Shown here: positions 15,221 to 44,287 of the stretch, in pieces | Numbering within the stretch: the stretch's first letter is position 1 | How the letters are laid out: each line of letters begins with the position of its first letter | DNA from: Hydrogenophaga sp. BPS33 | Lineage (GTDB): Bacteria > Pseudomonadota > Gammaproteobacteria > Burkholderiales > Burkholderiaceae_C | Length of the DNA: 64,000 bases | Direction of reading: 5' to 3' | Assembly (NCBI RefSeq): GCF_009859475.1 | Contig: NZ_CP044549.1 | Coordinates: 1,364,001-1,428,000 of the forward strand | Program-made: the position numbers and the translations under genes | The notes under the pieces: generated by a model | Told to the model about the DNA's origin: nothing | The model's database searches: none | What the model saw: the letters and a program-made list of their open reading frames with translations, nothing else

Positions 15221-16042
15221 TCACTGTGTCGCGTTCGGGAAGAACAGCTGCTCGCCGCCGATCTTGTAGGCCGCGATGGCCGACTGCCCGGTGGGCGATA
15301 CCACCCAGTCGGCGAAGGTCTGGGCCAGCGCCTTCTTCACGTGCGGGTGCTTGACCGGGTTCACCACGATCACGCCGTACTGGTTGAACAGCTTCTTGTC
15401 ACCCTCCACGACGATGGCCAGATCGCCACGGTTCTTGAAGTTGAGCCAGGTGCCCCGGTCGGACAGCACATAGGCGTTGGTGGACGAGGCGATGTTGAGC
15501 GCCGGTCCCATGCCGCAGCCACACTCCTTGTAGCCCGCGGGCTTGGCCGTGGCCAGGTCGATCCCCGCGTCCTTCCACTGGCGCAGCTCGGCCGAGTGCG
15601 TGCCGCTCTTGTCGCCGCGCGAGACGAAGGGCGAGCCCTTCTCGCCCAGTCGCTTGAGGGCATTGGCCATGTTGTTGCCGCGCGCGCCGGCCGGGTCGGC
15701 CTTGGGTCCAATGAGCACGAAGTCGTTGTACATCACCGCGCGGCGTTCGAGGCCAAAGCCTTCGGCGACGAACTTCTCTTCGGCGGGCTGGTCGTGCACG
15801 AAGAGCGCATCGGCATCGCCACGGCGTGCCATGTCCAGCGCCTGGCCTGTGCCCACGGCCACCACGCGCACCTCGATGCCCGAGGCCTTGGTGAACTCGG
15901 GCAGCAGGTGCTTGAACAGGCCGGACTGTTCGGTGGAGGTGGTCGAGGCCAGCACGATGAACTTGTCTTGTGCCTGGGCCAGCGGCGCGAGCAGCAGCGC
16001 TGCAACGAAGGCCAGGAGGGTGGAGCGTGTGCGCAGGTTCAT
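15221..16042 (-). CDS. tupA: Tungstate-binding periplasmic protein TupA
   Basis: The 273-residue protein has a 24-residue signal peptide and then the TupA hallmark STTSTEQSGL (33-42), whose Thr/Ser residues bind the oxyanion. FVSRGDKSGTHS in the second lobe also matches TupA. The family delivers tungstate, and in some cases molybdate, to the membrane complex. The permease/ATPase partner here must be the fusion at 1307-2791, more than 12 kb away, because none is adjacent. A perfect inverted repeat lies ~60 bases upstream. Confidence 0.92.
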   Translation of the reverse strand: MNLRTRSTLLAFVAALLLAPLAQAQDKFIVLASTTSTEQSGLFKHLLPEFTKASGIEVRVVAVGTGQALDMARRGDADALFVHDQPAEEKFVAEGFGLERRAVMYNDFVLIGPKADPAGARGNNMANALKRLGEKGSPFVSRGDKSGTHSAELRQWKDAGIDLATAKPAGYKECGCGMGPALNIASSTNAYVLSDRGTWLNFKNRGDLAIVVEGDKKLFNQYGVIVVNPVKHPHVKKALAQTFADWVVSPTGQSAIAAYKIGGEQLFFPNATQ

Positions 16043-34816: not shown

Positions 34817-35731
34817 TCAGCGGGGCACCTGGATGCTGTGGCGCAAGGGCGCGTAGCGCGCCTCGATGCCGTGCATGCCGGTTGGTGGCAGTGCGTTGGC
34901 GAACTGGCGGTCCAGCGCCTCGGCGATGCGCGCCGCGTCCCACGCGGGGTGCTCCATCACCGGCAGCGTGACGGCCGGATGGCTCATCAGCTGGAGCTGT
35001 TGGCCATGCACGCGGAACACCTGGCCGTTGACGTGGCGAGAAAGCGGCGAGAGCAGGAACGCGACCACCGGCGCGTTGCACATCGGATCCACGTGGGGCC
35101 GACGGTCGATCAACTGGCCCTGTTGGCGCAGGTAGTCGTCGGTGGTGTGCGACATGGCCGTGGTCGCCACCGGCGAGAGCGCGTTGACGCGAATGCCGTG
35201 CGCGGCGCCGTCCATGGCCCAGGCATAGGTGAGCGAAGCCACGCCGCCCTTAGAGGCCGCGTAGGCACCGCCCGCCGCCATGCCGGCCTGCGTGCCCGAG
35301 GACACGTTGACGATGGCACCATGCCCCTGGCGCTGCATGTGCGTCAGTGCGTGAACGCCGCTGTAGTAGGTGCCCAGCAGGTTGACTTCGAGCAGGCGGC
35401 GCGCGCGTTCGCCATCGGTTTCTTCCCACGGGCGCGCGAGGTACATGACGCCGGCGAGGTTGACCAATCCGTCGATCTGCCCATGTTCGGCCACACAGCG
35501 TTCGATGGGTTCGCGGGCGGACGCCCATGAGCCCACGTCGCTCGCGCTGGCCGTGACCCTGTGGCCCTCGGCGCGCAGCGACGCGGCGAGTGGCTCCACG
35601 GCCTGCGCGTCCCGATCGGCGACCACCAGCGTCGCGCCCACGCCCGCCAGGTACCGGGCCACTGCCGTGCCGATGCCGCCGGCCGCGCCGGTGATGACGA
35701 TGGACTGGTTCTTCAGGAGATCGCGGTTCAT
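34817..35731 (-). CDS. Short-chain dehydrogenase/reductase
   Basis: The 304-residue classical SDR has the cofactor motif TGAAGGIG (~14-21), NLAG in place of NNAG, and the catalytic Ser and YxxxK in VSSGTQAG and AYAASKGG (~150). The Asp after the second strand (VVADRD) favours NAD(H). A 50-residue C-terminal extension after the usual end is unusual for the family. Its upstream region is the left copy of the 115-bp direct repeat, so it may share control with the gene at 43286. Confidence 0.88.
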   Translation of the reverse strand: MNRDLLKNQSIVITGAAGGIGTAVARYLAGVGATLVVADRDAQAVEPLAASLRAEGHRVTASASDVGSWASAREPIERCVAEHGQIDGLVNLAGVMYLARPWEETDGERARRLLEVNLLGTYYSGVHALTHMQRQGHGAIVNVSSGTQAGMAAGGAYAASKGGVASLTYAWAMDGAAHGIRVNALSPVATTAMSHTTDDYLRQQGQLIDRRPHVDPMCNAPVVAFLLSPLSRHVNGQVFRVHGQQLQLMSHPAVTLPVMEHPAWDAARIAEALDRQFANALPPTGMHGIEARYAPLRHSIQVPR

Positions 35732-35738
35732 GGGGGCA

Positions 35739-35853
35739 AGCGTAGGGCGCGCAGCGCGAGGTGCGCAAGGCGGCGGCTCAATTCATCACGGACGTGTTGA
35801 TGCCTGGACCTGCGAGGCCCCTGCCATCGGGGTATGAACTCCAACCTTCAGGT
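35739..35853. repeat. Left copy of a 115-bp direct repeat flanking the Rieske oxygenase module
   Basis: Bases 35739-35816 are identical, 78 of 78, to 43191-43268. The match continues without gaps to 35853 with scattered differences and ends with the shared CCAACCTTCAGGT. The offset is 7452 bases. At 35834 this copy holds an ATG followed by codons for MNSNLQV and then a stop two codons later. The right copy starts the intact oxidoreductase with MNANLQV. The left copy is therefore a promoter plus a truncated gene start. Confidence 0.9.
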
Positions 35854-35961
35854 CGCGCGATGATCGGTGCAACGCCTGCGTCGACGTCGAGGCCCTGGAC
35901 GGCCTGGTGCGGTATTCAGCGCGCTCAGGTGCCCTGTCACAGCGGGGGCTGTAGACCGCGG

Positions 35962-36894
35962 TCAGACAACGAAGAGCCCCCGAGTGGCAGAGGCCACCTG
36001 GGCGCTGTCTTGCCGAATGCAGGTCAACCCCAGTTTGGGCGCGTGGCCGGTAAACGGCAGCACGGCAATGCCCAGGTCGCCCATCGACCATTGAACCTCG
36101 CGCAAGGCGCCGTCGTCCAACCGGATCACACCTTTGAGGCGCAGCAAGGAGCCGCCCTGCAATGCATCAACTTGCGTGTGCAGTGCCGCGAGTGTCAGGG
36201 GTGCGTCCAGCGGCACGAAGTGGGCCGAGGTGCCATGGTCCGGTGGCATATGGGCGAGCCAGCGGGGCGTCGGCGTGTGGGGCTGGGCCGTGACCATGGC
36301 CAGGGCGCTGCGCCAGTCCAGCGAGGCGTTCCTGGACAAAGCGATGGCTGCGCGCGGATTGAGTGAATGTAGCGCGCGCTCCACGGCGGCGCCGTCGGCC
36401 CGATCGCATTTGGTGACGATCAGTGCGTCCGCAGCACCGACCTGCGCCACCGCTTCCGGGTGCGCTTCGATCAGGTCCAAACCGGCCACCGCGCTGACCG
36501 CGGTGAAAACACCCGCCAGTTGGTAGCGTTCGCGCAGCAGGGGGACCGTGTCGAAGGCAGCGACCACGGGGCGAGGATCGGCCAGGCCGGTGGATTCGAT
36601 CACGACCGAGCTGTAGGTGGGGCGGCGCCGGTGCAGACGGTCCCACCAGAGATCGGAAAGAGCCTCTTGCAGCCCGGGCAAGCCGGTGCAACAGATGCAC
36701 GCGCTCGAGATCAGCGACGCGCTGTCGACCGCCTGGCCCAGCAAGCTGTCGTCCAGGCCCACCTCGCCGATCTCGTTGACGATCAGCGCAGCGTCTTGCA
36801 GCGCCGCGTCGCGCAACCACGAGCGCAGCAGGGTCGTCTTGCCGCTGCCCAGGTAACCCGTCATCAACCAGACCGGGATGCGTGTGGCCTTCAT
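35962..36894 (-). CDS. CobW/COG0523-family G3E GTPase
   Basis: The 310-residue protein has Walker A GYLGSGKTT (13-21), the metal-binding motif CICCTG with Cys66, Cys68 and Cys69, a Walker B-like ESTGLADP and the guanine motif TKCD (~160). The C-terminal CobW_C domain contains LLRLKGVIRLDDG. These GTPases deliver metals such as zinc, iron or cobalt to target enzymes. As the final minus-strand gene of the repeat-bounded module, it may load iron into the Rieske oxygenase or zinc into the dehydrogenase. That role is inferred from context only. Confidence 0.9.
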   Translation of the reverse strand: MKATRIPVWLMTGYLGSGKTTLLRSWLRDAALQDAALIVNEIGEVGLDDSLLGQAVDSASLISSACICCTGLPGLQEALSDLWWDRLHRRRPTYSSVVIESTGLADPRPVVAAFDTVPLLRERYQLAGVFTAVSAVAGLDLIEAHPEAVAQVGAADALIVTKCDRADGAAVERALHSLNPRAAIALSRNASLDWRSALAMVTAQPHTPTPRWLAHMPPDHGTSAHFVPLDAPLTLAALHTQVDALQGGSLLRLKGVIRLDDGALREVQWSMGDLGIAVLPFTGHAPKLGLTCIRQDSAQVASATRGLFVV

Positions 36895-36901
36895 GGCGTT
36901 T

Positions 36902-37687
36902 TCAATCCGCGTCGTAACCCAGGCGCGACGAAATCAATTGCGCCGTTTGGGTCACCATGGGAATGATGCCGCGCAGCTTCTGTTTGGTCAGGCGCTGTGT
37001 GGGGGCCACGAGGCCCACCGCGGCCAGCACGTTGCCGTTGGCATCGAAGATGGGTGCGGCCACGCCGCGCATGCCGTCTTCGCTTTCCTCGTCGTCGATG
37101 GCATGGCCACTCTCGCGCACCTCGCTCAGCAGCCGTTGCAGCTCGGCCTTGCCAACCACGGTGTGCGCGGTACGCGGTTGCAGGTCGGCGCGCAAGGCGT
37201 TGGCGATCAGCATGGGCGGGCTGAAGGCCAGCAGCGCGCGGCCTTCGCTGGTGCAGAAGGCCGGCTTGCGCACGCCCAGGTACGAGCGGGGGCGGATGGC
37301 GTGCCGGCTCTCGATGTTGCGCAGGTACAGGATCTCGCTGCCGTGCAGCACCGCCAGGTGCACGGTCTCGCCGCTCTGCTCGCACAAGGTGTGCAACAGG
37401 GGCGCCGCTTCTTCGGCCACGTCCATGCGTCGGCGCACGAGCGTGCCCATGGAGAAGAGCAGCAGACCCAGGCGGTAGCGCCCGTCGGCTGGGTTCTGTT
37501 CGAGAAATCCCTCGGAGACCAGGGTCACCACCAGCCGGTGGATGGTGCTCTTGGCTAGGCCGAGGCGCTTGCTCAGCGCGGTGATGCCCAGTTCGGGCTC
37601 TTCGGCCGTGAAGGTTTTCAGCAGCCTCAAGGCCGCTGCCACGGATGAAAGATTGCGGCTCTCGCCGGATTTCTCGGTATTGCTCAC
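36902..37687 (-). CDS. IclR-family transcriptional regulator
   Basis: The 261-residue protein has an N-terminal winged helix (~15-75) with ITALSKRLGLAKSTIHRLVVTL, and an IclR effector domain (~85-255) containing SRHAIRPRSYLG and GVAAPIFDANGNVLAAVGL. Its start overlaps the stop of the dehydrogenase gene (ATGA), so it is the third gene of the oxygenase-dehydrogenase-regulator operon. It likely senses the aromatic or cyclic substrate and binds the 40083-40187 promoter region. Confidence 0.9.
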   Translation of the reverse strand: MSNTEKSGESRNLSSVAAALRLLKTFTAEEPELGITALSKRLGLAKSTIHRLVVTLVSEGFLEQNPADGRYRLGLLLFSMGTLVRRRMDVAEEAAPLLHTLCEQSGETVHLAVLHGSEILYLRNIESRHAIRPRSYLGVRKPAFCTSEGRALLAFSPPMLIANALRADLQPRTAHTVVGKAELQRLLSEVRESGHAIDDEESEDGMRGVAAPIFDANGNVLAAVGLVAPTQRLTKQKLRGIIPMVTQTAQLISSRLGYDAD

Positions 37688-38799
37688 TGATGCGGGTTGA
37701 TGGTCATGTGGATGGCTCCCTCGACGCCGTCACCGACCAACGATCTCAAGGCCAGGTCCGTCTCGTCGAGAGAGAAGGTGTGCGTGCTCATCGCCGTCAC
37801 ATTATGGCGATTGCCCGCGATCAGCTGCAGCGCGAGCTCGACCGAGGCGTAGGAGTGTCCCCGCATGCCTTTGACCGTCAGGAAGTTGGCGATGATCCGG
37901 TCGCTGTCGAACTCGGGAATGGGACGCCGTTTCTGGCCACCCAGGATCACAGTGCCCTTCTTGCGCGCCAGTTGCATCGCGCTTGTGACCGAGCCCGGTC
38001 CACCCGAGGCGCAATCGATCACGAGGTCGGCCATGCGCCCACCGGTGATGTCGGCCACGGTCTCCAGCAGGTCGTCCTGCTCGATGTCGATGGTGTGGTG
38101 CGCGCCCAGTTCGCGCGCCAGCGCGAGGCGGCGGCGATCGGTTTCGTTCGAGAGCCCCGTGAGGATCACGCACTCCGCACCGGCCTCGCGCGCCGCGACC
38201 ACGCACGCCAGTCCTTGCTGCCCGGGCCCTTGAACGACCACCGTCTGCCCCGGCCCGGCACCACCTTGCAGGTAGGCCCATTCGATGCCGTTGGAGATGG
38301 GCAGCGCCAGGGCCGCGTGTTGCGGCGACACGCCCGACGGCACGCGGTGAAACACGGTGTTGGCGTGCAGGTGCTGCACTTGCGCGTAGCCACCCCACAG
38401 GCCGGGCGCCACGTTGAGCGCGGTGGCGCCGTAGCGCATGCCGCCCAGGCGCCAGTCGGTCGCGTTGCACAGGCGAAAGTCGCCCGAGCGGCAGTACTCG
38501 CAGTGGCCGCAGGGCAGGTACTCTTCGAGCGCCACGAGGTCGCCTTCCTTCACGCCCCAGCGCTGCGCGGCCAGCGCGCCCAGCGTCTCGACATGGCCCA
38601 CCGTTTCGTGGCCCAGGATCAAGGGGCCGCGCGAGCGCGGCAGGTTCTGGTAGTAGCCCCAGTCGCTGCCGCACACGCCGGTGATGGCCACGCGCAGCGT
38701 GCCCGAACTGGCATCGGTCGGCGGCACCTCGATGTGCTGGATCTCGGTGCGACCCACGGCCACGGCCACGGCGGCTCTCACGGAACGTGTTTCGCTCAT
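37684..38799 (-). CDS. Zinc-binding medium-chain alcohol dehydrogenase
   Basis: The 371-residue protein has the catalytic zinc motif GVCGSDWGYYQ and GHETVGHVE, plus the complete structural-zinc loop CGHCEYCRSGDFRLC (~97-111). The Rossmann segment GPGQQGLACVVAA lacks the standard GxGxxG but is in place. It resembles threonine/sorbitol dehydrogenases. Four-base overlaps join it to the Rieske gene and to the IclR gene. Its likely job is oxidation of the alcohol or dihydrodiol made by the oxygenase. Confidence 0.9.
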   Translation of the reverse strand: MSETRSVRAAVAVAVGRTEIQHIEVPPTDASSGTLRVAITGVCGSDWGYYQNLPRSRGPLILGHETVGHVETLGALAAQRWGVKEGDLVALEEYLPCGHCEYCRSGDFRLCNATDWRLGGMRYGATALNVAPGLWGGYAQVQHLHANTVFHRVPSGVSPQHAALALPISNGIEWAYLQGGAGPGQTVVVQGPGQQGLACVVAAREAGAECVILTGLSNETDRRRLALARELGAHHTIDIEQDDLLETVADITGGRMADLVIDCASGGPGSVTSAMQLARKKGTVILGGQKRRPIPEFDSDRIIANFLTVKGMRGHSYASVELALQLIAGNRHNVTAMSTHTFSLDETDLALRSLVGDGVEGAIHMTINPHQ

Positions 38800-40082
38800 A
38801 CCGTGGCGTGTGGTTTGCCGGGCTCCGCGCGCAAGGCCTCGCGCGCGGCTTCCTGGAAGGCCTGGCCTTCGGGCAGCACGACGGCCGCCGAACGCACCTT
38901 CTGCATGTGCGGCTCGTTGCCGGGCGGCGCGGTGCCCGACTCGGCCAGCGCGGTGGCCGCCGCGATCAGGCGACGGCGCGCCTGCACGATGCCGCGGTCG
39001 GTACCGGTGAGGTGCTCGCGGGTGCGGTCCTGGACCGGGCCCATGCTTTCCTGCAGCGACGAGTCCTGGATGGCAATGCTTTCGACACCGCTGTAGAGCT
39101 CACCGGTGCGCTGCTTCGCGCGGTCCATCAGGTAGTCGTTGGACTTGTTGGCCAGGGGAATGTAGGTGCCGGGCACGTACTTGCAATGAATGCCGGCGCC
39201 GTTCTTCATGGCCTGCACCTCGCTGTCCTTCAGGGCGCGCGTGGGGTGGTAGTCGAAGCTCCAGGCCCAGCAGTTTTCGTCATCGATGGGCACCCAGAAA
39301 TGCCCGTGCACCGGATGGTCGCCGCGCGGCGGCACCATGGTGAAGCACGGCATGATCCACGGCGTAATGCGCCAGTAGAGCGAGCCGGGCTCGGCCTTGC
39401 GGCGCACGCCGATGAAGAGTCCGCCTTCGGTATCGGTGACCTCGAACTGCGGGCGCAGGTCGTTCATGTTGTATTCGTTGCCCTTGGCGCCTTTGAACAG
39501 AGGGTCGGTGTTGAGGCCGCCGCTGTGCAGGAACGAGACGTGGCTCGAATCGATGCCGCCTTCGAGCGCCTGCAGCCAGTTGCATTCCTGAACGCGCTTG
39601 GATGTGAAGCTCTGTGCGGCCGGGACGGTCGCGAATTCCCACTCGGGTGGTGGTGGCTGCAGCTCGGGTGGCCCCATGTAGATCCAGATGACGCCGCCGC
39701 GCTCGATCAGCGGGTAGGACTTGAGCGCAATGCGCTCGCACAGGCGGCTGCCTTCGGGCTCGGACGGCACGTCCACGCAGCGGCCCGACACGTCGTACTT
39801 CCATCCGTGGTATGGGCAGCGCAGGCCGTTCTCTTCGTTGCGGCCAAACCAGAGCGAAACGCCGCGGTGGGCGCAGAACTCGTCCATCACACCCAGGCGA
39901 CCCTGCGTGTCGCGGATGGCAATCAGACGCTCGCCGAGCAGCTGCACGCGCACCGGTGGGCCGTCGGGTTCGGCCAGCTCTTCCGATAGCAAGGCCGGTA
40001 GCCAGTAGCGGCGAAACATCTCGCCCATGGGGGTGCCCGCGCTGGTGCGCGTGACCAATTCGTTCTGCTCTTTCTTCAACAT
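38796..40082 (-). CDS. Rieske non-heme iron oxygenase, phthalate 4,5-dioxygenase-like terminal component
   Basis: The 428-residue protein has Rieske ligands Cys70, His72, Cys89 and His92 (CAHRG and CPYHGW) and mononuclear-iron ligands in EGGIDSSHVSFLH (His181, His186). It lacks a separate beta subunit, as in the phthalate dioxygenase/VanA class of homomeric oxygenases. Electron supply should come from the reductase at 42205. It starts at an ATG at 40082 behind AGGAG. Likely substrates are aromatic acids, but other class members demethylate or hydroxylate, so the reaction is not fixed. Confidence 0.92.
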   Translation of the reverse strand: MLKKEQNELVTRTSAGTPMGEMFRRYWLPALLSEELAEPDGPPVRVQLLGERLIAIRDTQGRLGVMDEFCAHRGVSLWFGRNEENGLRCPYHGWKYDVSGRCVDVPSEPEGSRLCERIALKSYPLIERGGVIWIYMGPPELQPPPPEWEFATVPAAQSFTSKRVQECNWLQALEGGIDSSHVSFLHSGGLNTDPLFKGAKGNEYNMNDLRPQFEVTDTEGGLFIGVRRKAEPGSLYWRITPWIMPCFTMVPPRGDHPVHGHFWVPIDDENCWAWSFDYHPTRALKDSEVQAMKNGAGIHCKYVPGTYIPLANKSNDYLMDRAKQRTGELYSGVESIAIQDSSLQESMGPVQDRTREHLTGTDRGIVQARRRLIAAATALAESGTAPPGNEPHMQKVRSAAVVLPEGQAFQEAAREALRAEPGKPHATV

Positions 40083-40187
40083 CGGTTTATCTCCTGTTCC
40101 ATATAAAAGAACGATTTGCCTGTATGTGGAACAATGATAAAGTCATTCGAAGGTCGAAGCAAGCCCCACAATTTTTTGGAGACAAGG
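40083..40187. promoter_or_regulatory. Divergent control region with GTTC/GAAC symmetry, candidate IclR operator
   Basis: This AT-rich 105-base gap separates the minus-strand oxygenase operon from the plus-strand Bug/decarboxylase/reductase operon. GTTC (40096-40099) and GAAC (40109-40112) form a short palindrome. TGTTCC (40095-40100) is mirrored by GGAACA (40128-40133). A plausible plus-strand promoter is TTGCCT (40116-40121), 16 bases, then TAAAGT (40138-40143). The GTTC palindrome overlaps the oxygenase leader. Both fit control by the IclR protein encoded in the module. Confidence 0.45.
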
Positions 40188-41171
40188 ATGATTTGCAAAC
40201 TCTCTTCTTCGCTTTTGTTCTGTGCCGTTGCCATGGGCGCCGGTGCTGTTGGCGCGCAATCCAACGACGTGGCCAACTGGCCCAACAAGCCGGTGCGCAT
40301 CGTCGTGCCGTATGCGGCGGGCGGCTCGTCCGACACGCTGGGCCGGGCCATTGGCCTGCACCTGCAGACGGCCTTCAAGCAGCCGTTCGTGATCGACAAC
40401 CGGCCGGGCGGTGGGGGCACGATCGGATCAAGCCAGGTGGCCAAGACGCCACCCGATGGCTACACGCTGGTGGTCTCGGGCATCGGTTCGCACGTCATCG
40501 CACCGGTAGAGGTCAAGACCCTCCAGCCGATGACGGACTTCACGCACGTCGCCATGCTGGGCGGCCCCGCCACCGTGCTGGTGGTGCACCCTTCGATGCA
40601 GGTCAACACCCTCAAGGAGTTCGTGGCACTGGTGCAGCAGCAACCCGATGGGCTCACCTGGGGATCGCCAGGGCAGGGCACGCACGGCGAACTCATTGGC
40701 CAGCTTTTTGCGCAGAGAGCGAAGTACAAGCAGACGCACATCGGCTACAAGGGCGCGGCACCGGCCGTGGCCGATCTGGCGGGCGGCCAGATTCCCGCGG
40801 CATTCATCACCTACACCTCGGCCAGCTCCTTCATCCGCTCGGGCAAGATCAAGGCACTGGCCATCACCTCGCCCAAGCGCTCGGACGATATTCCCCAGGT
40901 GCCCACGTTTGCCGAACTGGGCTACCCCGAACTGACCGCGACGACCTGGTTCTCGCTGTCCGGCCCGCCCAGCATGCCGCCCGCCCTGGTGGAGAAGATC
41001 AACGCGGAAGTTCGCCGTGGCATGAAAAGCGAGCCGGTGCGCAAGCTGATGGCCCAGGAAGGCATCGAGTCGCAGGACTGGGATGCGCCCACGTTCACGC
41101 GTTATGTGCAAAGCGAAATAGACCGCTGGACGCCGCTCGTGAAGTCGCTCGGTTCGACCCGCAAGCCCTGA
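40188..41171 (+). CDS. Bug-family periplasmic solute-binding protein of the oxygenase module
   Basis: The 327-residue protein has a signal peptide ending VGAQ (~24), then WPNKPVRIVVPYAAGGSSDTLGR, the Bug ligand entry loop with its Asp. GGGTIGSSQVAKTPPDGYTL and SDDIPQVPTFAELGYP are family motifs. It starts at an ATG at 40188 behind GGAGA. It should bind the aromatic or cyclic acid degraded by the adjacent oxygenase system and work with TctAB-type membrane proteins encoded elsewhere. Confidence 0.9.
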   Translation: MICKLSSSLLFCAVAMGAGAVGAQSNDVANWPNKPVRIVVPYAAGGSSDTLGRAIGLHLQTAFKQPFVIDNRPGGGGTIGSSQVAKTPPDGYTLVVSGIGSHVIAPVEVKTLQPMTDFTHVAMLGGPATVLVVHPSMQVNTLKEFVALVQQQPDGLTWGSPGQGTHGELIGQLFAQRAKYKQTHIGYKGAAPAVADLAGGQIPAAFITYTSASSFIRSGKIKALAITSPKRSDDIPQVPTFAELGYPELTATTWFSLSGPPSMPPALVEKINAEVRRGMKSEPVRKLMAQEGIESQDWDAPTFTRYVQSEIDRWTPLVKSLGSTRKP

Positions 41172-41200
41172 TCGCGCACACAAACCCCCACCGATTACGC

Positions 41201-42190
41201 ATGAACAAGCTTCGACTTTCCGTCGCCATGGGCGACTACGACCGCACACGCCCGCTCTTTGATGGGCGCGTCCAGATCGATGGGGTGGACCCCGTCTACA
41301 TGCTGCTCAACCCGGAAGAGATGTTCTTCCGGGCCATGCGCAGCCAGGACTTCGACATCACGGAGCTCTCGTTTTCGAGTTACCTCGTGAAGCACTCGCG
41401 CGGTGAGTGCCCCTATATCGCGGTGCCGGTGTTCGTGTCGCGAGCCTTTCGCCACACGTCGATCTATGTGCGCAAGGACCGCATCCAGCGGCCCGAGGAT
41501 CTGAAGGGCAAGCGCATCGGACTGCCCGAGTACCAGTTGACGGCCAACGTGTGGGCGCGCGCGATTCTGGAGGACGACCATGGCGTGCATCCATGCGACG
41601 TGACCTGGGTGCGCGGCGGCATCGACACGCCCTCGCGGCCCGAGAAAATTGCCTTGCAGCTGCCGCCCGACATCCGGGTGGAAAGCGCACCCGAAGGCCA
41701 GACCATCTCGGCCTTGCTCGACCGTGGCGAAATCGATGGCTTCATCGGGCCGCGTCCGCCCAACGCCGTTGCCTTGCGCAACCCGAACATCGGCTGGTTG
41801 TTCGATGATCCCACCGCCACCGCCAAGGCTTATTACCAGCGCACGGGGGTGTTTCCGATCATGCACGTGGTGGGCATTCGAAAGACACTGGCCGAGCAGC
41901 ACCCCTGGTTGCCCATGGCCGTCTTCAAGGCCTTCTCGCAAGCCAAGAGCGCCGCGCTGGAGCTGCTGGGCGACACCTCCGCTACCAAGGTCACGCTGCC
42001 TTTCGTCGAAGAACAGCTCAAGGCCGCCAAGTCGGTGATGGGCGAAGACTACTGGCCTTACGGCGTGGCCGCGTCGCGCAGGACGCTGGAGACCTTCGTG
42101 CGCCACCACCATTCGCAAGGCCTGTCGGCGCGGCAGATGGAAGTGGCCGACCTGTTCCATCCATCGACCTACGAAACCTACAGCATCTGA
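41201..42190 (+). CDS. 4,5-dihydroxyphthalate decarboxylase-like protein
   Basis: The 329-residue protein has a substrate-binding-protein fold but no signal peptide. LRLSVAMGDYDRTRPLFDGRV at the start, EPEEMFF-like NPEEMFFRAMRSQDFDITELS, and RGECPYIAVPVF and GLPEYQLTANVW later match the family annotated as 4,5-dihydroxyphthalate decarboxylase in phthalate pathways. The family also contains members of unproven activity, so decarboxylation of a hydroxylated aromatic acid is likely but not certain. It lies 29 bases after the Bug gene and 14 bases before the reductase gene. Confidence 0.83.
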   Translation: MNKLRLSVAMGDYDRTRPLFDGRVQIDGVDPVYMLLNPEEMFFRAMRSQDFDITELSFSSYLVKHSRGECPYIAVPVFVSRAFRHTSIYVRKDRIQRPEDLKGKRIGLPEYQLTANVWARAILEDDHGVHPCDVTWVRGGIDTPSRPEKIALQLPPDIRVESAPEGQTISALLDRGEIDGFIGPRPPNAVALRNPNIGWLFDDPTATAKAYYQRTGVFPIMHVVGIRKTLAEQHPWLPMAVFKAFSQAKSAALELLGDTSATKVTLPFVEEQLKAAKSVMGEDYWPYGVAASRRTLETFVRHHHSQGLSARQMEVADLFHPSTYETYSI

Positions 42191-42204
42191 GGAGCGGCCA
42201 CCGC

Positions 42205-43161
42205 ATGACGAATGCCAGCCTGAGCGTGCGGGTCGCCCGCAAGTCCATCGAAGCCCTGGACATCTGCGCCCTTGAACTGGTGGATGCACAAGGCGACGCG
42301 CTGCCTGCATTCTCGGCCGGCAGCCATGTCGACGTCCATCTGCCCAACGGGCTCGTGCGGCAGTACTCGCTGTGCAACGACCCGACCGAAAGCCACCGCT
42401 ACCTCATTGCGGTGCTCAAGGACCCGGGCTCTCGCGGAGGCTCGCGCGCGGTGCACGAGCAGATCCGCGTGGGGGAGACGTTGTCGATCAGCCGGCCGCG
42501 CAACCACTTCGAGTTGCAGCCGAACGCCAAGAAGTCGCTGTTGCTGGCCGGCGGCATTGGCATCACGCCCTTGCTCTGCATGGCCGAACGCCTGGCGACG
42601 ATGCAGGCCGACTTCGAACTGCACTACTGCACCCGTTCGCGCGAGCGCACCGCTTTTCGCGAACGCATTCTTCAGGCGGGCTTCGCATCGCAGGTGCAGT
42701 TTCACCACGACGACGAACAGGGTGCAAACCTGGAAGCGCTGCTGGCGCAACCGACGCCCGGTGTGCATCTCTACGTCTGCGGCCCCAAAGGCTTCATGGA
42801 CGCGGTGATCGGCACCGCGAAGCGCCTGGGCTGGGCCGATGACCAGGTGCACCACGAGTACTTTGCGTCCACGGTGGTGGCGTCCGAGGGCGATGGCGCG
42901 TTCGAGATCCAGTTGGCGAGTTCGGGCCGTGTCATCTCCGTTGCGCCGTCCCGTACGGCGGCGCAGGCACTGGCGGATGCCGGGGTGGTAGTGGCCACCT
43001 CCTGCGAGCAAGGCGTGTGCGGTACCTGCCTCACGCGCGTGCTCGACGGCCAACCCGAGCACCGGGACATGTACCTCTCGCCTGGCGAGCAGGCGCAGAA
43101 CAACTGTTTTCTGCCTTGTTGCTCGCGCTCGCTGTCGCCCAGGCTGGTACTGGATCTGTAG
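42205..43161 (+). CDS. Phthalate/vanillate-type oxygenase reductase (PDR/VanB family)
   Basis: The 318-residue protein has an N-terminal flavin domain with the RQYSLCNDP motif (~52-60), an NAD(P)H domain with LLLAGGIGITPLLCM (~112-126), and a C-terminal plant-type [2Fe-2S] domain with CEQGVCGTC (~268-276) and a further Cys in NNCFLP. It passes electrons from NAD(P)H to the Rieske oxygenase at 38796. It is the last plus-strand gene before the right repeat copy, 29 bases away. Confidence 0.92.
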   Translation: MTNASLSVRVARKSIEALDICALELVDAQGDALPAFSAGSHVDVHLPNGLVRQYSLCNDPTESHRYLIAVLKDPGSRGGSRAVHEQIRVGETLSISRPRNHFELQPNAKKSLLLAGGIGITPLLCMAERLATMQADFELHYCTRSRERTAFRERILQAGFASQVQFHHDDEQGANLEALLAQPTPGVHLYVCGPKGFMDAVIGTAKRLGWADDQVHHEYFASTVVASEGDGAFEIQLASSGRVISVAPSRTAAQALADAGVVVATSCEQGVCGTCLTRVLDGQPEHRDMYLSPGEQAQNNCFLPCCSRSLSPRLVLDL

Positions 43162-43190
43162 TACCTGCTCGCGCACCTCGGTTGAGGCTC

Positions 43191-43305
43191 AGCGTAGGGC
43201 GCGCAGCGCGAGGTGCGCAAGGCGGCGGCTCAATTCATCACGGACGTGTTGATGCCTGGACCTGCGAGACGCCTACCATCGGCACATGAACGCCAACCTT
43301 CAGGT
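43191..43305. repeat. Right copy of the 115-bp direct repeat, containing the promoter and start of the oxidoreductase gene
   Basis: Bases 43191-43268 are identical to 35739-35816, and the less perfect match runs to 43305. This copy carries the intact gene start at 43286. TACCAT at 43274-43279 lies exactly six bases before the ATG, as expected of a -10 box for a leaderless message. The left copy has TGCCAT in this position. The repeat thus holds a working promoter and the first codons on the right side only. Confidence 0.9.
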
Positions 43306-44287
43306 GCGCATTCGCCACCTTCCGCGCGACACGGTCGAAGCCGGGCACTTCGAATTGCACGAAGCGCTAGTGCCCCTGCCCGCGGCCGGCCAGGTCCTGG
43401 TGCAGCAGCACTTTCTCTCGCTCGATCCTTACATGCGAAAACGCCTGGCGGACGCCTGCGCGGGCCGTGATCCACTGGCGCCAGGCGACGTCATGATGGG
43501 GCGCACGGTGGGCCGCGTGGTCGAGTCGCGGGACCCTGCATTTCGTGCGGGCGACACCGTGTTGGGGTGGGGCGGTTGGCAGCGCTACGCTGCCGAGCCC
43601 GCACAGAGCTTGCAGAAGGTCGAGCCCGTAGAAGGCGGTTCGCTCTCGGTGCACCTGGGCGCGCTCGGGCGGCCCGGCATCACGGCGTGGCTGGGCGTGG
43701 TCTCGGTGGCGCAGTTGCGCGCGGGCGAATGCCTGGTGGTCTCGTCGGCGGCCGGCGCGGTGGGCAGCCTGGCCGTGCAGATGGCGCGCCACATCGGCGC
43801 GCGCGTCGTGGGCATCGCGGGCGGGCGCGCGAAGTGCGACGCGGTGGTCGGGCAACTCGGTGCGCAGGCGTGTGTGGATTACAAGGCGCCCGATTTCGCG
43901 CAACAGCTGGCGCACGCCACGCCCGATGGCGTGGACGTGGTGTTCGAGAACGTCGGTGCCGGTGTTCTCGATGCCACCTTGAACCGCATGAACGAAAACG
44001 GCCGCGTTGCCGTGTGCGGGCTGATGGGGCATTACCACTCCGGCGACCCCTACGGATTCCAGAATTTCGCGCGCGTCCTGGACCGGGCGCTGAAGGTGAC
44101 CGGCTTTCGCATCGACGCCAACGCGCCCTTGCACGCCCAGGCCCTGGGCGATCTGCGCGCCTGGTTCGGCGCGGGCGTGCTGCGGTCGTGGGAGACGGTT
44201 GCGCAAGGGTTGGAGCAGGCGCCCGATGCCTTCGTTTCCATGCTGCAAGGCCGGGGTCAGGGCAAGACCCTGGTGCAAATCATCTGA
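43286..44287 (+). CDS. NADP-dependent oxidoreductase of the prostaglandin/leukotriene reductase type
   Basis: The 333-residue zinc-free medium-chain reductase has LDPYMRKRL, VVSSAAGAVGSLAVQMA (nucleotide-binding AAGAVG), GGRAKCD and FENVGAGVLDATLNRM. These match the CurA/PTGR group that reduces alpha,beta-unsaturated carbonyls. The start is at the right copy of the direct repeat, with a leaderless-type promoter. Six bases later comes the DUF2889 gene, probably co-transcribed. It is likely the gene whose 5' end was duplicated at 35834. Confidence 0.9.
   Translation: MNANLQVRIRHLPRDTVEAGHFELHEALVPLPAAGQVLVQQHFLSLDPYMRKRLADACAGRDPLAPGDVMMGRTVGRVVESRDPAFRAGDTVLGWGGWQRYAAEPAQSLQKVEPVEGGSLSVHLGALGRPGITAWLGVVSVAQLRAGECLVVSSAAGAVGSLAVQMARHIGARVVGIAGGRAKCDAVVGQLGAQACVDYKAPDFAQQLAHATPDGVDVVFENVGAGVLDATLNRMNENGRVAVCGLMGHYHSGDPYGFQNFARVLDRALKVTGFRIDANAPLHAQALGDLRAWFGAGVLRSWETVAQGLEQAPDAFVSMLQGRGQGKTLVQII

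Follow-up and report, generated by a model that had tools for sequence, protein, structure and literature searches.

Gene content of the block and its flanking repeats

The stretch of Hydrogenophaga sp. BPS33 DNA analysed here (contig NZ_CP044549.1, positions 1,364,001 to 1,428,000; 64,000 nucleotides, referred to as the window) includes a block of seven genes, among them a gene for a Rieske oxygenase. The block is located between two direct repeats, beyond which lie a gene of the short-chain dehydrogenase/reductase (SDR) family on one side and a gene for an NADP-dependent medium-chain dehydrogenase/reductase (MDR) on the other; the latter gene is referred to as the oxidoreductase gene (Table 1). 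Insertion of the block at this site with duplication of the target sequence is well supported by the sequence evidence described below.

Table 1. Features of the block, its borders and the adjacent genes (window positions).
Feature	Position	Strand	Supporting match
Left neighbour (SDR family gene), preceded by repeat copy 1	34817..35731	-	Pfam adh_short 9e-42; 59% amino acid identity to L012 gene, residues 39-304
Repeat copy 1, apparent target duplicate; 3' part retains a dead piece of the oxidoreductase start	35739..35853	+	
Palindrome-like motif ATCAC-N3-CGTGTTGAT, core of copy 1	35785..35801		
Decayed 3' end of RNase_T exonuclease gene, stops at stop codon	35865..35954	+	67/90 identical to L106:6676-6765
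CobW-type GTPase gene (cobW)	35962..36894	-	Pfam cobW 1e-31
IclR-family regulator gene	36902..37687	-	Pfam IclR_C 4e-46
Zinc MDR dehydrogenase gene	37684..38799	-	Pfam ADH_N, ADH_zinc_N
Rieske oxygenase gene, LigXa_C type	38796..40082	-	Pfam; PDB 9ina, 7fhr; 97-98% amino acid identity in G025
TctC receptor gene	40191..41171	+	Pfam TctC 2e-57
4,5-Dihydroxyphthalate-decarboxylase-like gene, PBP fold	41201..42190	+	PDB 9jp7
Phthalate dioxygenase reductase-like gene, Fer2	42205..43161	+	Pfam; PDB 6kbh, 2pia
Right filler, 29 bp	43162..43190		
Repeat copy 2, continues into intact oxidoreductase start	43191..43305	+	
Right neighbour, NADP-dependent MDR oxidoreductase gene	43286..44287	+	Pfam; 72% amino acid identity to L012 gene

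In a preliminary description of the window, the seven genes were assigned to a GTPase, an IclR regulator, a dehydrogenase, an oxygenase, a receptor, a decarboxylase-like protein and a reductase, with no transposase present. Pfam searches led to the same assignments and revealed neither a transposase nor an integrase among the seven products; gaps within the block do not exceed 108 bp. The oxygenase matched PDB entries 9ina (2e-146) and 7fhr, a putative phthalate 4,5-dioxygenase (5e-100), and the reductase matched 6kbh, a P450-fused reductase (9e-70), and 2pia, phthalate dioxygenase reductase (2e-65). The decarboxylase-like protein (translated stretch 41198-42190) matched over residues 2-330 and with E=1.5e-197 the entry 9jp7, which was deposited under the name 4,5-dihydroxyphthalate decarboxylase. 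For nine window proteins, no NCBIfam model was found at its curated cut-off among the matches listed. As judged by these similarities, the block probably encodes breakdown of a phthalate-like pollutant, a phthalate-like acid being the best guess for the substrate of the predicted pathway.

Comparison of the window with itself confirmed that bases 35739-35816 and 43191-43268 are identical (78 bp, the core) and that the similarity extends to 115 bp, with 94% identity and at a constant offset of 7452. By chance, exact matches in a stretch as long as the window and of its composition should reach ~17 bp at the longest, and ~2e-34 matches of 78 bp are expected. The seven mismatches between the copies all fall at positions 79-102 of the 115, and their clustering in the last 37 of 115 bp has P=0.0002 under random placement. 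Only these two copies are present in the 6.77-Mb genome (G000), the next best hits being short matches with E=0.19. The repeat is thus not scattered over the genome, which supports the insertion, and its being a genome-wide element is ruled out.

This genome has few such repeat pairs, although the present one is not unique. A count of exact direct repeats (at least 70 bp, 1-40 kb apart) in 1.264 Mb of the 6.33-Mb contig gave six diagonals, namely 28069, 34246, 17136, 7452 (the present pair), 7934 and 15533. Four of the five other diagonals carry several runs, i.e. they represent longer similar stretches; a closer look was taken at 15533 and 34246 only. The repeat spaced by 15533 is a ~270-bp near-identical direct repeat (C1:3575441-3575710 and C1:3590974-3591243; L170 and L171) that flanks proteins with resolvase/recombinase, phage-integrase and VapE-like domains. 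One of its copies lies in an isocitrate lyase gene, at the end with the 3' coordinate, and an integrative element appears to have used this gene. A 293-bp exact direct repeat is present at C1:1500307 and C1:1528376, 28 kb apart.

The block and its target site in other genomes

An oxygenase match with E<=1e-150 was found in four of 67 congeneric genomes, including that of BPS33 itself. Besides the latter, only one genome (G025, listed in the same genus) includes an oxygenase that is >90% identical, and it has two copies (98% and 97%); the other two genomes have relatives of 53-54% identity. All seven genes are present in the same order at two loci of G025 (L106 and L107), both at sites other than that in the window. 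The DNA homology spans window positions 35865-43161 in one copy (92.2% identity) and 36013-43160 in the other (91.4%). Both spans stop just within the repeats of the window, with the homology ending at the reductase stop codon on the right; the limits of the cargo are accordingly about 35865-43161, narrower than the repeat-to-repeat distance. The cobW gene shows 82-84% DNA identity to the G025 copies, compared with 90.7-95.3% for the other six genes, which looks like faster evolution or exchange.

The repeat was not found in either 19.9-kb stretch of G025, where the sole match with E<=0.01 was 21 bp long and lay within a flanking gene. Neither were long direct repeats of any kind found within 1.5 kb of the G025 copies, the best direct match being 13 bp. 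The absence of the repeats beside the G025 copies indicates that they represent target sequence and not cargo, and rules out that they form the ends of the module. The preliminary description had proposed insertion of a cassette bounded by the repeats; occurrence of the block at two other sites agrees with insertion, but the repeats are duplicated target and not the bounds of the module. In the L107 copy, two open reading frames with transposase-type rve domains adjoin the reductase end, and around the L106 copy no transposase was detected among five flanking genes scanned.

More distant relatives of the block are less complete. Six regions from other genomes of the family include varying subsets of the block genes around an oxygenase gene, none having all seven. 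A Caballeronia plasmid carries relatives of six block genes, without TctC, inside 21 kb, and plasmid searches gave only parts of the block, with no record spanning 80% of it.

The 108 bp that separate the left repeat from cobW include the decayed end of an exonuclease gene (Table 1). In G025, a gene encoding an RNase_T domain (Pfam) abuts the block and is convergent to cobW. The scrap in the window ends with ...VEALDGLVRYSARSGALSQRGL and a stop, and its G025 counterpart with ...IEALDSLVRYSARPGLVSQQGL and a stop, so that both have a common stop position and an SQxGL ending. The BPS33 genome has an intact relative of the exonuclease gene (match at C1:2249291-2250304), which ends differently; the exonuclease gene is separated there from the next conserved gene by other genes, and in G025 by the block. 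Derivation of the scrap from an arrangement like that in G025, i.e. as a scar of the donor, is therefore favoured, though not proven. In copy 1, what is left of the oxidoreductase start runs straight into the scrap, with <=11 bp between them.

In a search for an origin of the left spacer elsewhere in the BPS33 genome, a DNA query with 35854-35980 gave nothing but itself better than E=0.03; the comparison with G025 revealed the exonuclease end, to which the intact exonuclease gene of BPS33 then turned out to be similar at almost the same level. The interval that has the exonuclease gene on one side and the DUF1854/ABC transporter genes on the other carries different cargo in the two congeners (L128:7347-15212 in BPS33, with other genes, vs L106:6762-13950 in G025, with the Rieske block) and thus looks like a variable spot. 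In addition, the exonuclease gene and a two-component regulator region, adjacent in G025, are ~50 kb apart in BPS33 (C1:2199565-2249291).

A relative of the target locus without the block was found on a 13.7-kb contig (L012) of a Ramlibacter metagenome-assembled genome (G781). Its genes follow the window gene order: cupin (68% amino acid identity), SDR (59%), oxidoreductase (72%), DUF2889 (86%), TctC (84%) and aldolase (82%). The best relative of the oxygenase in G781 is 47% identical. Upstream of its oxidoreductase gene, L012 has one homolog of the repeat, at L012:6720-6807 (E=1e-9, compared with 0.013 for the next match). By eye, alignment with this homolog assigns ~4 changes to copy 1 and two to copy 2, one being ambiguous. 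Relatives of the SDR (51%) and the oxidoreductase (57%) are also encoded by the Variovorax PBL-E5 plasmid, with an NTF2-like gene between them, and protein databases include closer oxidoreductase relatives, the best of which reach 83% identity at 91% coverage and 79% along the entire length.

The segment that was duplicated lies upstream of both divergent genes, and hence each of them retained its upstream DNA. The palindrome-like motif in the core is exact in both repeat copies and in L012. When up to three mismatches were allowed, the motif pattern gave 17 matches in the window vs 3.1 expected from shuffles; with at most one mismatch, 11 matches were found in G000, eight in G025 and nine in G781, and none in any of them for the reversed pattern. 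As the motif is also present elsewhere in these three genomes, it provides weak evidence for an operator and can be proposed as a putative one at most. Collapse of the sequence in silico across the 78-bp core left the SDR (304 amino acids) and the oxidoreductase (333 amino acids) intact, with their starts 102 bp apart. Loss of the block together with one repeat copy would thus restore two divergent genes, as predicted in the preliminary description.

Proposed origin of the duplicated target

Considering these data together, a ~7.3-kb phthalate-type block was probably inserted between the divergent genes by non-homologous recombination, which duplicated a target of ~115-120 bp. The donor would have had the block beside the exonuclease gene, as in G025. 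The target may have been opened by staggered breaks across the upstream region shared by the SDR and oxidoreductase genes, and a fragment with one end inside the exonuclease gene and the other shortly beyond the reductase stop codon would have been joined to the opened target. Fill-in would then leave the target segment on either side, as it is seen now. Such a staggered opening with fill-in would account for the two joined ends, for the donor scrap and the 29-bp filler at the left and right ends of the block, respectively, and for the flanking target segments. With copy 1 remaining upstream of the SDR gene and copy 2 upstream of the oxidoreductase gene, neither gene need have lost its promoter. 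The oxidoreductase start in copy 1 would subsequently have decayed, and the core could have been kept identical through selection or gene conversion. Recombination between the two cores could remove the block cleanly; such a deletion is predicted and plausible.

Several observations weigh against this interpretation. It had been predicted that a block-free relative would carry one repeat copy between directly divergent SDR and oxidoreductase genes. L012 lacks the block and has one homolog of the repeat, which supports the insertion, but a minus-strand TctC gene, whose product is only 33-34% identical to the window TctC proteins compared, lies between the SDR gene and this homolog. The two genes are thus not directly divergent, and the exact empty site was not seen. 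Furthermore, the window has an enoyl-CoA hydratase gene and a SnoaL-like gene between the cupin and SDR genes, and L012 lacks both at that position. The extra TctC gene and the two absent genes suggest that the locus has been altered more than once. The block-free relative is a single contig from a metagenome-assembled genome of another genus, with ~72% identity.

A strain-level empty site was not found in the genome sets searched, which overlap and in most of which few candidates per genome were scored. DNA of the repeat together with the oxidoreductase gene was present in one of 67 congeneric genomes, DNA of the SDR gene together with the repeat in one of 399 genomes of the family, and an orthologous site in one of 330 genomes of the order, in each case that of BPS33 itself; an orthologous site was present in one of 60 genomes of the genus of L012, namely G781. 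The oxidoreductase protein was matched with E<=1e-80 in 54 of the 399 family genomes, and among the matches listed none but that of BPS33 exceeded 49% identity.

The borders and the target give further points on the same side. The scrap matches the exonuclease gene of BPS33 (65/90) almost as well as that of G025 (67/90), and the 29-bp filler has no convincing match in the window or in 16 loci. A promoter scan revealed no sigma-70-like promoter in 35650-36000, and consequently the designation of the repeat as a promoter region is based on its position.

An alternative is that the repeats did not arise together with the insertion. The intergenic region may have been duplicated in tandem with the block arriving later, or a circle bearing the block and a copy of the region may have been integrated by a single crossover. 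Either route would yield an identical layout, and re-integration of a circle is the model proposed, in the part of PMC2869330 that bears on this point, for moved Arabidopsis genes with flanking repeats that match the target site. However, the repeat accompanies neither G025 copy, so that no known donor bears it; an extra event is required; and the oxidoreductase start in copy 1 abuts the donor scrap. A two-step or circle origin is accordingly considered rather unlikely, and a one-step event is preferred.

It is also conceivable that the block has been at this site since ancient times and was lost from the relative, the second repeat being a later copy of the control region kept for co-regulation of the SDR and oxidoreductase genes. 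The identity of the core next to the divergent outer 37 bp and the exact conservation of the core motif in L012 would suit this explanation. Against it, a recent arrival is suggested by the piece of exonuclease gene on the left and by the presence of the block at two other sites in a congener; copying of an operator alone would not be expected to bring along part of the oxidoreductase start, as found in copy 1; and the motif occurs elsewhere in G000, G025 and G781 as well. A long-standing block is thus improbable.

Finally, the repeats could be the attL and attR sites of a site-specific integrative element whose integrase was lost or acts in trans. In this genome, the ~270-bp repeat flanks a 15.5-kb interval that encodes proteins with resolvase and phage-integrase domains, and one of its copies lies in the isocitrate lyase gene, which indicates that long gene-start repeats do arise via integrative elements here. 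However, neither an integrase gene nor space for one exists between the present repeats, and the G025 locations lack such repeats, which makes this the least probable explanation.

Relation to known systems

Movement of catabolic operons without a transposase or integrase is often left as 'illegitimate recombination'. At the present locus, the sequence allows the donor arrangement, the scar and the target duplication to be recognised, so that one event has nearly defined ends. It also suggests a rule, namely that insertions duplicating a shared upstream region spare both neighbours. More generally, there is some possibility, put forward tentatively, that metabolic operons enter chromosomes without enzymes of mobile elements by insertions that generate a second copy of an entire divergent control region. 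The neighbours would keep their promoters, the insertion would be almost cost-free and the block would stay excisable; this might represent a general, overlooked route for catabolic blocks in Comamonadaceae.

In gene content, the block resembles the pht/oph clusters for phthalate 4,5-dioxygenase in having a Rieske oxygenase, a reductase of the phthalate dioxygenase reductase (PDR) type, a decarboxylase-like protein and a TctC receptor together. It differs from them in the dehydrogenase, which is a zinc MDR enzyme and not the Gfo/Idh-type dihydrodiol dehydrogenase (Pht4) of such clusters or the Gfo/Idh dehydrogenase of the plasmid relatives, and in the additional cobW and IclR genes.

Rieske oxygenase blocks are also moved by catabolic composite transposons of the IS1071 type, one of which appears in the BPS33 genome in triplicate. 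In C2:161429-197063 (L082, L083), four copies of a 3204-bp Tn3-family element with 106-107-bp inverted repeats, IS1071-like, bracket three tandem 7.6-kb units that are ~99.9% identical over the array. Each unit encodes a Rieske oxygenase 45% identical to that of the window, and the first additionally includes two TctC genes, a Fer2 reductase gene and a MarR gene; the unit had no match in the plasmid collection by megablast. Unlike a composite transposon bounded by insertion sequences (IS), the block has no IS at its borders, and its repeats are target DNA of this locus only, bordering the SDR and oxidoreductase genes. Unlike a genomic island of the integrase type, the block has no integrase gene among its seven genes. 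As to att sites, direct repeats are present here, and none were found around the G025 copies.

Open-access literature searches, which are no proof of absence, found no reports that link long target duplication to catabolic genes, none on staggered breaks with target duplication and none on IS1071 with tandem catabolic copies. The term 'insertion with long target duplication' is attributed to Nobusato et al. 2000 (Gene 259:99-108) in passages of PMC1643837, PMC3031569, PMC3154945 and PMC4978471. These passages concern restriction-modification genes, mostly in comparisons of Helicobacter pylori strains. As characterised there, such insertions share with the present locus a block absent from a relative (here L012), long direct repeats of a single-copy target and the lack of an own transposase. 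Differences are the catabolic cargo, duplication of a shared divergent upstream region, and comparison between genera instead of strains. The locus would thus be a well-resolved case of a known kind of insertion with a different type of cargo. It would show that a mode known from restriction-modification genes also applies to a block that is predicted to degrade a pollutant.

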